Shown in pieces: positions 48,158 through 58,649 of a DNA stretch of 64,000 bases; positions within the stretch are counted from its first letter, which is position 1, and each line of letters starts with the position of its first letter. A program made the translations under genes and the position numbers. This DNA comes from a candidate division WOR-3 bacterium (GTDB lineage Bacteria; Hydrothermota; Tepidihabitantia; SM23-42). The stretch covers positions 1 through 64,000 of the forward strand of contig JAOUFJ010000013.1 in NCBI GenBank assembly GCA_029858255.1. Reading direction: 5' to 3'. The notes beneath the pieces are model-generated. The model worked only from the letters and a program-made list of their open reading frames with translations. It searched no databases and was not told the origin of the DNA.

Positions 48158-49441
48158 ATGGTAAAAATAAATGAGACAAAGATTAGAGAGAAAAAATATG
48201 ACCCTTTCATAGAAGCAACGATGCAATACGAAAGGGCGGCATACTCCCTGGATCTTGAGCCATGGATATATAACCGGCTCAAGTTCCCGGAGAAAGAACT
48301 GACCGTGCATATGACCATCACTCGTGACGATGGCAATGTCGAAACCTATACCGGCTACCGAGTACAGCATTGCACGGTGCGTGGTCCGGGTAAGGGCGGT
48401 ATTCGTTACAGTCCAGACGCGTCGCTCAGCGAGTGCAAGGCGCTCGCCGCGTGGATGACCTGGAAGACAGCCGTTATGGACCTGCCACTTGGCGGTGCTA
48501 AGGGCGCGGTGATCTGCAATCCCCCGGAGATGACCGAAAGTGAGCTGGAAAAACTCACGAAAGAATACACATATTCCATAAAAGAGATCATTGGACCGAA
48601 CCGGGACATCCCGGCACCAGATGTCTGGACCAATGCCCGAACCATGGCCTGGATATGCGATGCATATAGTCGCTATGTCGGTCACTTTGAACCAGCCGTG
48701 GTTACGGGAAAACCACTGGAAATCGGGGGCTCTCTCGGACGGGCTGGAGCCACAGGTCTTGGTATGTATTTCTCCCTGCTTGAGGCCTCAAAGCACCTTG
48801 AATATCCGCTCGAGGGAAAACGTGTTGCCATTATCGGTTACGGTAACGTTGGCAGCTCCATAGCAGAATTGCTCCACCCGTATGGCTGCAAAATCATCGC
48901 AATAACCGATATGTACGGCGGCATCCATAACAAAAATGGAATCGACATCCCTGGTCTGTGTGAACACGTCAACCAAACAAAAACTGTCAAAGGATTCAAG
49001 AAATACGATTCGATCACAAATGAAGAGTTACTGGCGCTCAACTGCGATATCCTCCTCCCATGCGCGATCGAAGGCATGATAAATGAGAAAAATGCCCACA
49101 AGATCAAGGCTAAGATAATATGTGAAGGCGCAAATGGACCCACTACTGCCGATGCCGATGAGATACTGGCTGAAAAAGATGTCTTCATGCTCCCTGATAT
49201 CCTCGCCAACGCCGGTGGCGTTACGGTATCATACCTGGAATGGATACAGGACCTTCAAAAGTGCTTCTTTAGCGAAGAAGAAGTCAAGAACCGGTGCTGG
49301 AGAATGATGCAGAAAGCGTTCTGGGATGTTGTGCGTGTCTCTGACAAGCACAAAACAAACACGCGGCACGCTGCATACATCCTTGCCGTTCAAAGAGTCG
49401 CTGATTCGATCAGACTGTTCGGAAAGATCGGTCGAAATTAG
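48158..49441 (+). CDS. gdhA: Glutamate dehydrogenase (Glu/Leu/Phe/Val dehydrogenase family)
   Basis: A 427-residue enzyme that interconverts glutamate with 2-oxoglutarate and ammonia. PLGGAKGAV contains the catalytic Lys, GPNRDIPAPD is a conserved active-site loop, and IIGYGNVGSSIAELL is the dinucleotide motif. The length and the absence of an N-terminal insertion fit the hexameric GDH50 type. GGAGG sets the ATG at 48158. A palindromic cluster upstream suggests regulation, and a strong terminator ends the transcript. It lies between the NtrC-type regulator and the transhydrogenase operon. Confidence 0.94.
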   Translation: MVKINETKIREKKYDPFIEATMQYERAAYSLDLEPWIYNRLKFPEKELTVHMTITRDDGNVETYTGYRVQHCTVRGPGKGGIRYSPDASLSECKALAAWMTWKTAVMDLPLGGAKGAVICNPPEMTESELEKLTKEYTYSIKEIIGPNRDIPAPDVWTNARTMAWICDAYSRYVGHFEPAVVTGKPLEIGGSLGRAGATGLGMYFSLLEASKHLEYPLEGKRVAIIGYGNVGSSIAELLHPYGCKIIAITDMYGGIHNKNGIDIPGLCEHVNQTKTVKGFKKYDSITNEELLALNCDILLPCAIEGMINEKNAHKIKAKIICEGANGPTTADADEILAEKDVFMLPDILANAGGVTVSYLEWIQDLQKCFFSEEEVKNRCWRMMQKAFWDVVRVSDKHKTNTRHAAYILAVQRVADSIRLFGKIGRN

Positions 49442-57300: not shown

Positions 57301-57377
57301 CAGCAATAAAAGAAGCGAAACGCTGTTTGCGATGCGATCTGGAAGTAAAAGAAGAAGATGAAAAGGAGCAATCATGA
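54303..57377 (+). CDS. Fusion of NuoF-like NADH/FMN subunit with GltD/NfnB-like NADPH/FAD domain
   Basis: A 1024-residue fusion starting at TTG after a strong AAGGAGG. Residues 1-100 are a thioredoxin-like [2Fe-2S] domain (CAGTGC, TGCNGFC). NuoF follows with the FMN/NADH motif GRGGAGFPTGLKWE (about 166), GAGAFVSGEETSL, and the cluster motif CGKCLSCREG (about 454). From about 535 it becomes GltD-like: CQHTCP, CARVCHHPCETKC, FAD motif IIGSGPSGLMAAHALAHKG (about 635) and NADPH motif GIIGGGNSAVDAARV (about 765). Both an NADH site and an NADPH site are thus in one chain, as expected for a transhydrogenase. No catalytic hydrogenase subunit follows. Confidence 0.9.
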   Translation: MKEFRTHLLVCAGTGCVAAGSYDIKKTLEKEILKRKLHNEVRVIATGCNGFCERGPIVVVQPDGIFYQKLKLKDIPHLVEEHLLKGRPVKNLMYVPPAGEKPVPKMMDIGFFSHQRLIVLKNRGRIDPENIDEYIAFEGYQALEKSLTEMNPEEIIKEIKEAGLRGRGGAGFPTGLKWELCRRTPGDDKYVVCNADEGDPGAFMDRSILEADPHAVLEGMIIGARAIGATKGFIYVRTEYPLALQRIRIAIEHAEKYGLLGKDILGTGFDFSIEVKRGAGAFVSGEETSLLAAIEGKIGIPKQRPPYPVQKGLWRKPTNINNVETWANVPHIILRGAKWYSEIGTEGSKGTKIFSLVGKINNTGLVEVPMGITMKDIIYEIGGGIPHNKQIKAVQTGGPSGGCIPRNMLDLPIDYESLRKAGSMMGSGGMIVMDEDTCMVDVAKYFMNFLRDESCGKCLSCREGTQRIWEILERITKGKGTQDDIGLLQELAQATKDASMCGLGQTAANPVLSTLNYFMDEYEAHIKYKKCPAVVCKSIISSPCQHTCPIETEAPQYIAYIAHGDFDKAYEIILKDNPLLNVCARVCHHPCETKCRAGQGGKPIAIRELKRAAIEHSDGRRRPKTKTPSGDKVAIIGSGPSGLMAAHALAHKGYAPTIFEALPIVGGMLAVGIPEYRLPSKALKEDIKRVLNAGVDIKTEQKLGRDFTLDKLLQQGYKAVYIAIGAHKSIKLGIPNEEASGVIPAMRFLTDVSLGRKVTLGSRVGIIGGGNSAVDAARVANRLPGVTQVTIIYRRTRNEMPAYAEEIESALEEGIDIQFLTAPTEIIVKDGHVTRIKCTRMQLGTVDQSGRRRPIPIKDSEFVVELDTLISAISEQPDLSFLEEEHDFEISGWNTFVVEKESLSTNVLGIFAGGDAIRGPSSVIEAMADGKRVAETIDQYLKNRPIRLEYKVTRPTVYVEPVKLTVAETLESTRQDSRKTKSAARRKNFAEVDLGLNRSSAIKEAKRCLRCDLEVKEEDEKEQS

Positions 57378-58075
57378 TAAGCTTCATTTTGAATGGACTC
57401 GAGGTGCAGACCGAGGAAGGGTCGACAATTTTGGAGGCGTGCAGGTTCTATGGCATTGAAATACCCACCCTTTGCTACAACGAAGGTTTGAAACCTTATG
57501 GCGGTTGTCGCTTGTGCCTCGTCGAAATAGGCACTGGCGAAAACAGTAAACTTGTCAGTTCTTGCACGTATCCGATTGAAGAAGGTCTTCGTGTTCGCAC
57601 TAATACGAAACGAGTGGTCAGTGCCCGGAAGATGATGATCGAACTACTGGTTTCCATAAGCCCGCAATCAAAAACAATCCAAGACCTCGCGTCGAAGTAT
57701 CACGTGACCAAGGTGCGTTTCCCGGTACGCAACGATGACTGTGTGCTCTGCGGATTGTGTGTGCGCATGTGTAAAGAACAAATGCAGTCTGGAGCCATCG
57801 GTTTCACCGAACGCGGGTACAAGAAGAAGATAGTAACGCCCTTCAATATCCGGTCAGAACAGTGCCGACTATGCGGTGGCTGTATCTATATCTGCCCCGC
57901 CTGTCAGATGAGGTGCCAGGGCCCGGATGCACCAACTGATCTCTGCAGCGGATGCTTGTCCCTGGAGCCATCCTGCATTGAAACTCATGATGACTATCAA
58001 TGCTGGATGGGCACAACCGGCGATTGCGGAACGTGCGAAGGAAGACCTGATCAGAGGAAAACAGATAAGAGATAG
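57374..58075 (+). CDS. Short NuoG/HydA N-terminal-like iron-sulfur protein
   Basis: A 233-residue protein with an N-terminal [2Fe-2S] domain (CYNEGLKPYGGCRLC, SSCTYP), then two ferredoxin clusters (CVLCGLCVRMCKE, CRLCGGCIYICPACQMRC). A C-terminal cysteine-rich tail follows (CSGCLSLEPSC, CWMGTTGDCGTC). It ends there, without the H-cluster domain of HydA or the molybdopterin-like domain of NuoG. Its clusters would link the fused flavin protein to ferredoxin. It overlaps the upstream gene by 4 bases. A heptad repeat covers its stop codon. Confidence 0.85.
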   Translation: MISFILNGLEVQTEEGSTILEACRFYGIEIPTLCYNEGLKPYGGCRLCLVEIGTGENSKLVSSCTYPIEEGLRVRTNTKRVVSARKMMIELLVSISPQSKTIQDLASKYHVTKVRFPVRNDDCVLCGLCVRMCKEQMQSGAIGFTERGYKKKIVTPFNIRSEQCRLCGGCIYICPACQMRCQGPDAPTDLCSGCLSLEPSCIETHDDYQCWMGTTGDCGTCEGRPDQRKTDKR

Positions 58076-58088
58076 CAGATAATGGATG
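58061..58088 (+). repeat. Heptanucleotide-period repeat across a gene end
   Basis: Four 7-nt units (ACAGATA, AGAGATA, GCAGATA, ATGGATG) run over the stop codon at 58073-58075. Three end in GATA. Confidence 0.6.
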
Positions 58089-58114
58089 ACAGCAAGATCA
58101 TGGACACATTGGTT

Positions 58115-58609
58115 ACGGTAACGAAGCCCGTTTCGGTGACGTCAAGCGGTAACGTATGAAAGAAAAAAAGCGGATAACTAGTTTTCACGACCTCGATGTT
58201 TATCAAAATACATATAAGGCATGCATTGAAATTATGAAAAGAATAGTACCAAGGTTACCCGAGAGTGAGAAGTATGACTTGAAAGACCAGCTTAGCCGTT
58301 CGTGTAAAGCAATCCCTCGCCTCATCGCAGAAGGCTATGCGAAGAGACATCAAAAAATGGGGTTCCAAAAATACTTAGATGATGGCATGGCGGAATGCAA
58401 CGAGACTATCGTCAGTCTGTCTCAGGCAAGAGACATCTACGATAATTCCGCCGATGTTGATTTGTGTAATAGTTTGATTGACACATATGACAAATCCGGC
58501 CGTCAGTTATACAACTTGGCAATAGCCTGGAGCAAGTTTAAAAGGGGAAGCAAAGATGTTAGATGAACGTATCTCTAACCTTTGTTTACGAAACGGGCAT
58601 CGTAACCGT
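58115..58609. repeat. Inverted repeats framing the four-helix-bundle gene
   Basis: The 21-bp arms at 58115-58135 and 58589-58609 are inverted copies with 19 identities. The left arm ends 20 bp before the gene's ATG, and the right arm begins 22 bp after its stop, so the unit is 495 bp in all. No target-site duplication was found. The layout resembles 23S rRNA intervening sequences, whose stem is cut by RNase III, but here it is between two mRNA-coding genes. Confidence 0.68.
58156..58566 (+). CDS. Four-helix-bundle protein (23S rRNA intervening-sequence family)
   Basis: A 136-residue all-helical protein of the S23/four-helix-bundle family (TIGR02436 type). ITSFHDLDVYQNTY at the start, PESEKYDLKDQLSRSCKAIP and IAEGYAKR are the family hallmarks. 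These proteins are encoded by intervening sequences inside 23S rRNA genes and by stand-alone copies; their function is not established. The same fold occurs in the Avd protein of diversity-generating retroelements, but no reverse transcriptase is here. The gene has no ribosome site and is flanked by inverted repeats. Confidence 0.88.
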   Translation: MKEKKRITSFHDLDVYQNTYKACIEIMKRIVPRLPESEKYDLKDQLSRSCKAIPRLIAEGYAKRHQKMGFQKYLDDGMAECNETIVSLSQARDIYDNSADVDLCNSLIDTYDKSGRQLYNLAIAWSKFKRGSKDVR

Positions 58610-58649
58610 TTACCTTAATTGTTTTACTTTAAGTAGGAAAGGAGAAAAA

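Follow-up and report, generated by a model that had tools for sequence, protein, structure and literature searches.

The function of the S23/IVP proteins and the origin of the intervening sequences (IVSs) of 23S rRNA have been open questions for more than 25 years. An IVS lies inside a 23S rRNA gene, and its complementary ends form a stem around an open reading frame (ORF). Two ideas, both untested, have been put forward: that IVSs are remnants of transposition, or that they are mobile elements with an ORF needed for mobility (PMC4990558). Hairpins of another kind, the REPINs, are pairs of palindromic repeats in inverted orientation that are scattered between genes; they have a cognate Y1 transposase gene flanked by the same repeats, and carry a GTAG or CGTC tag at one end of the palindrome. 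A literature search, with most subscription journals and preprints outside it, returned no paper that describes non-rRNA PF05635 genes as mobile hairpin elements.

Here we describe a locus within a stretch of 64,000 nt (the window) of contig JAOUFJ010000013.1 from a candidate division WOR-3 bacterium, whose genome is referred to as the host genome. In the spacer that separates a NuoG-like gene from a GltB-like one, an ORF encoding a 136-aa four-helix-bundle protein (58156-58566, + strand) is placed between complementary arms. An earlier note on the window had likened this arrangement to an IVS inside an mRNA, and the likeness in anatomy was borne out: the protein family is the same, the gene lies in the loop of a stem, and it is oriented in the sense direction inside an operon. 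With moderate confidence, we interpret the unit (58111-58614) as a horizontally spread, IVS-like hairpin element, which carries the four-helix-bundle gene in its loop and is inserted in the sense orientation in a transcribed spacer.

Structure of the unit in the nuoG-gltB spacer

The operon gene upstream of the unit encodes a HoxU/NuoG-like 2Fe-2S/4Fe-4S iron-sulfur protein (57374-58075), while the downstream one is GltB-like and contains a Glu_synthase domain (PF01645; 58650-60233, 58650 being the most likely start). These two genes and the four-helix-bundle ORF are all located on the + strand. A CAGATAAGAGATAGCAGATAATGGATGACAG word array is found at 58061-58092 (+ strand). The same words make up the left arm of another type of four-helix-bundle unit, present in this spacer in genomes G006, G010, G011 and G020, and the array is probably a remnant.

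Read along the + strand, the unit begins with the outer word GGTTAC (58111-58116), a less conserved outer part of the stem, and the left arm ACGGTAACGAAGCCCGTTTCG (58115-58135), with a conserved 19-nt core GGTAACGAAGCCCGTTTCG at 58117-58135. The inner word GGTAACGT (58148-58155), which forms the inner stem in the 88-nt hairpins described below, directly precedes the ATG of the gene (58156-58566; PF05635/TIGR02436). The gene is followed by the inner word ACGTATC (58567-58573), partly complementary to the word at 58148-58155, by the right arm CGAAACGGGCATCGTAACCGT (58589-58609), with a conserved 19-nt core CGAAACGGGCATCGTAACC at 58589-58607, and by the outer word GTTTACC (58608-58614). The arms, each of 21 nt, are 90% complementary (19 of 21 positions paired); 20 nt separate the left arm from the ATG, and 22 nt separate the stop codon from the right arm, in agreement with the framing of the gene by inverted repeats proposed in the earlier note. 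The GTTAC/GTAAC words that had been pointed out in the arms are present as well. The exact ends of the unit, when read for a target duplication, are blurred by the outer arm words. No recombinase, transposase or reverse transcriptase is encoded within 58111-58614, and the unit has no match in Rfam. As in an IVS, complementary ends form a stem around an ORF, but the unit is situated between two protein genes and not inside a 23S rRNA gene.

The 20-nt arm core, with up to three mismatches allowed, has two matches in the window (0.01 expected) and 11 in the host genome (none for the reversed-pattern control). A chance inverted repeat was ruled out by this expectation and by the lack of reversed-control matches in the host genome and its genus. 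None of the other candidate arm copies in the window looks real: those at 1928 and 18498 are weak, and GTTACGGTAAC, which occurs elsewhere in the window only at 48837, was taken as coding sequence.

Folding of the unit as RNA pairs the arms together (z -2.7 for stability versus shuffled sequences), and the predicted MFE fold pairs them in 24 of 29 units. In 26 aligned arm pairs, 13 of the 38 columns are invariant; stem positions 4, 9 and 16 are mostly unpaired, while the remaining positions pair. Divergent copies show alterations in both arms, e.g. GGTTACGAGGCCGGTTTGG with CTAAACCGGCTTCGTAGCC at locus L171. Formal covariation is modest, with two-sided change in six pairs and about the same number in shuffles, since variation in the arms is low and complementarity was one of the grounds for choosing them.

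The same gene with the same arms across phyla

The suggestion of mobility made in the earlier note gained strong support from the presence of the same arms at homologues in about 20 phyla. Scanning a single genome for each species, most records being MAGs, revealed 56 loci with 52-81% identical proteins in these phyla, placed in differing gene contexts. The locus names include Omnitrophota, Desulfobacteraceae, Planctomycetota, Elusimicrobia, Nitrospirae, Cloacimonadota, Bacteroidetes, Ignavibacteria, Marinimicrobia, WOR-3/Stahlbacteria, Zixibacteria and many CPR groups. Several loci are situated in long sequences, namely contigs of 551 kb, 313 kb, 252 kb and 171 kb and one record given as a chromosome. 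Two relatives from the window's family have proteins identical to those of loci named Stahlbacteria and WOR-3, which places the window in that phylum.

Most of the close homologues are flanked by the same arms (left GGTAACGAAGCCCGTATCG, right CGAAACGGGCATCGTAACC), with approximately 20-30 nt between the left arm and the ATG and 8-22 nt between the stop codon and the right arm, and in most copies the unit size is 456-491 nt. Homologous genes devoid of arms, which the earlier note had named as an argument against its reading, are thus not the rule in the relatives. In the protein tree, which mixes phyla and is weakly resolved, the phylum labels require 22 changes, the minimum being 19. No close relative of this subfamily was identified in the sets of phages and plasmids or in the scanned viral contigs; plasmids carried only remote (30-38%) four-helix-bundle genes. 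Comparison of the loci shows the gene and its arms travelling together, as far as sequences can tell, across about 20 phyla, and the recurrence of the same hairpin with the same gene suggests that these genes, long unexplained, are part of mobile elements of a little-known kind.

Gene-less hairpins

Hairpins of approximately 70-93 nt that have the same arms but lack the gene were found in Desulfobacteraceae, Nitrospirae, Bacteroidetes, Ignavibacteria and others. Within the host genus, seven of the eight genomes contain 7-33 arm copies each (zero in every reversed control), and eight paired copies are exactly 88 nt long. The 88-nt hairpins share the outer 19-nt stem, and many add an inner GGTTACGT/ACGTAACC stem; in gene-bearing units the ORF occupies the loop of this inner stem. 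The loops of the mini-hairpins L146 and L179 contain GTGAAAGAAAAAAGACGA, a short segment similar to the beginning of the gene. In the host genome, the remaining arms stand singly, apart from one 90-nt hairpin (L016).

The search for further arm copies recommended in the earlier note therefore yielded both kinds, with and without the gene. The same note held that arms widespread without the gene would speak against its idea, and gene-less 88-nt hairpins and single arms are indeed dispersed in the genome and the genus. However, they fit miniature or decayed forms of the gene-bearing element, so mobility is not refuted by them. Genome G006 contains 13 gene-less copies, yet its sole PF05635 gene is of type 3 and no close relative of the window gene was seen there, so the protein may not be the spreader of these hairpins.

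At L163, L180 and L184 (Nitrospirae, Ignavibacteria and Bacteroidetes), one gene copy is surrounded by a cluster of several complete hairpins, each about 86-92 nt long. At L147, L150 and L152 a further palindromic word array (ACACAGATGATCACAGAT ... ATCTGTGATCATCTGTGT) encloses the unit, as if hairpin elements enter the loops of other hairpins.

The 88-nt hairpins could alternatively be REPIN-like, i.e. moved in trans as single-stranded DNA by Y1 transposases of the RAYT/TnpA-REP type, with the gene being only cargo of the loop, but we regard this as unlikely. The inverted pairs, about 88 nt in size and mismatched at the constant positions 4, 9 and 16, resemble REPINs (PMC3116915), the fixed mismatches recall the mismatch-dependent REPs of TnpA-REP (PMC8266576), hairpins without the gene exist, and the host genome contains five Y1_Tnp genes. 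Four of these five, however, have no arm within 1 kb, and an arm lies about 1.75 kb from the fifth, itself a weak match. The numbers of Y1 genes and hairpins also disagree: there are 12 Y1 genes and no arms in G005, but 3 Y1 genes and 33 arms in G007. The association with Y1 transposases was rejected on both counts. By eye, no constant GTAG or CGTC tetranucleotide is present at the hairpin ends, and mobilization of this type would leave unexplained both the linkage of gene and arms across phyla and the sense bias described below.

Orientation and occupation of spacers

At loci whose two neighbouring genes share a strand, the gene is in the sense orientation in 55 cases and antisense in two; for all PF05635 genes of the relatives the numbers are 74 and four. 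A DNA transposon entering spacers would be expected in both orientations. Ordinary operon genes are also mostly sense to their neighbours, and the ratio therefore counts only jointly with the evidence for mobility.

The nuoG-gltB spacer is occupied differently in related genomes. In the sister genome G003 the right arm and a decayed gene remain. Genomes G002, G004 and G007 contain another four-helix-bundle gene with the arm words ACGCAAAACGCTCGACGC / GCGTCGAGCGTAAAGCG, and G006, G010, G011 and G020 a third type, with GATAACTGATAACGG / CAGTTATCAGTAACG. Only a short array is present in G018, while in G021 and G023-G026 the spacer contains no unit; these are the empty sites in relatives that the earlier note had proposed to compare. 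A second hotspot is the spacer before a conserved 361-aa gene, mostly located after a gene for a CPKC-ending protein (L001, L060, L061, L067, L081, L202, L203, L204, L207, L208 and L210). One type of unit is found there in G000, G003, G007, G008 and G020, and another in G001, G002, G004, G005, G021 and G023. The presence of different unit types in the same two spacers indicates that whole units were replaced or repeatedly inserted at these sites.

These observations also bear on a reading in which the unit is purely an RNA-processing device: the stem would be an RNase III site that splits the operon transcript into two mRNAs, the protein would regulate the cut, and mobility would be incidental. 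The predicted stem around the ORF and its sense orientation are in accordance with such a role, and the IVS of Coxiella, which encodes a protein of the same family, is excised by RNase III (PMC4990558). We nevertheless consider it improbable: sister species have no unit or an unrelated one in the same spacer, so the operon does not need it, and gene-less hairpins are scattered through the genomes.

Inverted flanks and word arrays of PF05635 genes

The host genome contains eight PF05635 genes, all with distinct flanks, several of which are visibly inverted word arrays, such as GAAGACACG / CGTGTCTTC and CGTTAATTTCGTTA / TAACGAAATTAACG. For 99 distinct PF05635 loci of relatives, the upstream 150 nt were compared with the reverse complement of the downstream 150 nt. 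The mean score was 26.8 for a locus's own flanks and 15.6 for cross-paired flanks, and the own flank ranked among the top three in 52 of the 99 loci in the inverted orientation, but in only 11 in the direct one. None of 5000 permutations reached the observed mean, and the result holds with one locus per protein cluster. For 132 control ORFs from the same loci, the corresponding scores were 16.9 and 15.9.

Hundreds of degenerate TAACGNNNN arrays with a 9-nt period lie between genes in the host genome (e.g. L010, L013, L017, L018 and G000:C6:91909-92092). With one mismatch allowed, there are 185+267 overlapping matches, compared with 1+3 when the pattern is reversed. These arrays form inverted arms at the four-helix-bundle gene of L003, while the listed gene-less arrays elsewhere are mostly in a single orientation. 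TAACG arrays occur in all four genomes with a close L003-type gene, but also in G007 (55) and G025 (10), which have none, and the association is suggestive only.

PF05635 units with inverted word arms were also observed beside or between tRNA genes (L070, L072, L075, L079, L132, L006, L008 and L164); the L164 unit is located between tRNA-Thr and tRNA-Tyr. These four-helix-bundle genes are probably placed inside tRNA transcripts. Genomes G053, G059 and G060, which belong to the same class, contain 19-31 PF05635 genes each.

It had been proposed as an alternative origin that the arms arose by repeat expansion. In the form considered here, slippage of GTTAC words would have taken place beside an ordinary operon gene, gene and arms being functionally unlinked, which we find very unlikely. 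TAACG arrays are abundant, and other four-helix-bundle genes of the host genome are flanked by degenerate word arrays with a 9-nt period, around which expansion may matter. Purely local expansion was ruled out for the window arm because its sequence is conserved across phyla together with the gene, and flank complementarity is specific to PF05635 genes when compared with the control ORFs.

The four-helix-bundle protein

The product of ORF 58156-58566 matches PF05635 (23S_rRNA_IVP, E 2e-16) and TIGR02436 (four helix bundle protein), in profile matches of 60.4 bits (curated cut-off 33.8) and 50.1 bits (cut-off 24). Its AlphaFold model has four helices (pLDDT 91), and the best matches among solved structures are the S23-family proteins 2gsc (the top PDB match) and 2rld, followed by a weaker, more distant fold match to the Avd chain of the DGR complex 8ub7. 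The most conserved stretch, K-x-x-P-R-L-I-A-E-G-[YF]-A-K-R-H-Q-K...F-Q-K-Y, is rich in basic residues and may constitute a nucleic-acid surface. The dN/dS values of 0.03-0.15 among near relatives point to purifying selection and hence to maintenance of the protein, in contrast to the ORF of the Coxiella IVS, which is decaying (PMC4990558).

That the protein is an Avd relic of a DGR which lost its reverse transcriptase, as the resemblance of PF05635 to Avd (PMC10053308) and the 8ub7 match could suggest, is highly improbable, given that the host genome has no RVT_1 match, that 2gsc and 2rld are the best matches in both fold and sequence, and that an unsystematic look at the unit showed no template/variable repeats.

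Proposed mechanism

Returning to the horizontally spread hairpin element, we infer the following course for RNA excision, arm binding and movement. The imperfect stem of about 20 bp, together with the outer and inner words, would carry an IVP/S23 (Avd-like) gene in its loop. With little room for a promoter of its own, the unit would be read from the host transcript, which would fold, and the stem would be bound by the (probably pentameric) protein. RNase III would cut this stem, as in 23S rRNA intervening sequences, which would render the insertion harmless to the operon. The protein, which probably binds its own arms, would act on them as an RNA or a single-stranded DNA hairpin and thereby stabilize or spread the element, while catalytic steps would be borrowed from host enzymes.

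A wider proposal can be offered only tentatively, namely that PF05635 genes outside rRNA form a broad class of hairpin mobile elements. A non-catalytic four-helix-bundle protein may recognize a subfamily-specific imperfect stem that enters, or is kept in, transcribed spacers in the sense orientation and leaves gene-less miniatures behind; the 23S IVSs may be those members that landed in rRNA. Non-rRNA family members with cross-phylum arms, gene-less miniatures and locus-specific arm pairs lead to a concrete hypothesis: the protein binds its own hairpin, and the spreading unit is the hairpin plus the gene. Named sequences and testable RNA and DNA substrates are now available for it. The hypothesis may also explain the degenerate palindromic word arrays between genes that are common in many uncultured genomes.

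Comparison with known systems

The IVSs of Coxiella, Leptospira and Salmonella share with the window unit a PF05635/S23p ORF in a stem loop of complementary ends, with a length of approximately 430-490 nt. The Coxiella IVS has tandem heptamer repeats (GACAGAT) before the ATG of S23p (PMC4990558), and their resemblance to the arm words of the window type links the 23S IVS and the hairpin element. The window unit differs in residing in a protein operon spacer, in having arms conserved in sequence across phyla, in the existence of gene-less 88-nt forms, and in the selection acting on its protein.

A full unit with a gene, accompanied by short gene-less units with the same ends, is reminiscent of MITEs and their parent insertion sequences, as are the mini-hairpins L146 and L179, which keep a stretch like the start of the gene. 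However, the element has no transposase in the unit and a strong sense orientation. Avd of DGRs belongs to the same four-helix-bundle superfamily and is thought to act with structured RNA, but the host genome has no reverse transcriptase, and no template/variable repeat was seen at the unit.

The element shares with REPIN/REP-RAYT systems its scattered inverted pairs of about 88 nt, in which the mismatches hold fixed positions, as well as isolated remnants and nesting in other hairpins. In contrast to these systems, a non-catalytic four-helix bundle takes the place of the Y1 transposase as the associated protein, its gene lies inside the loop, and the element is spread across phyla. Because it is not located in 23S rRNA, has no adjacent Y1 gene and bears no GTAG or CGTC tag, the element is a member of neither group, being IVS-like in its anatomy and REPIN-like in its dispersed mini-hairpins.
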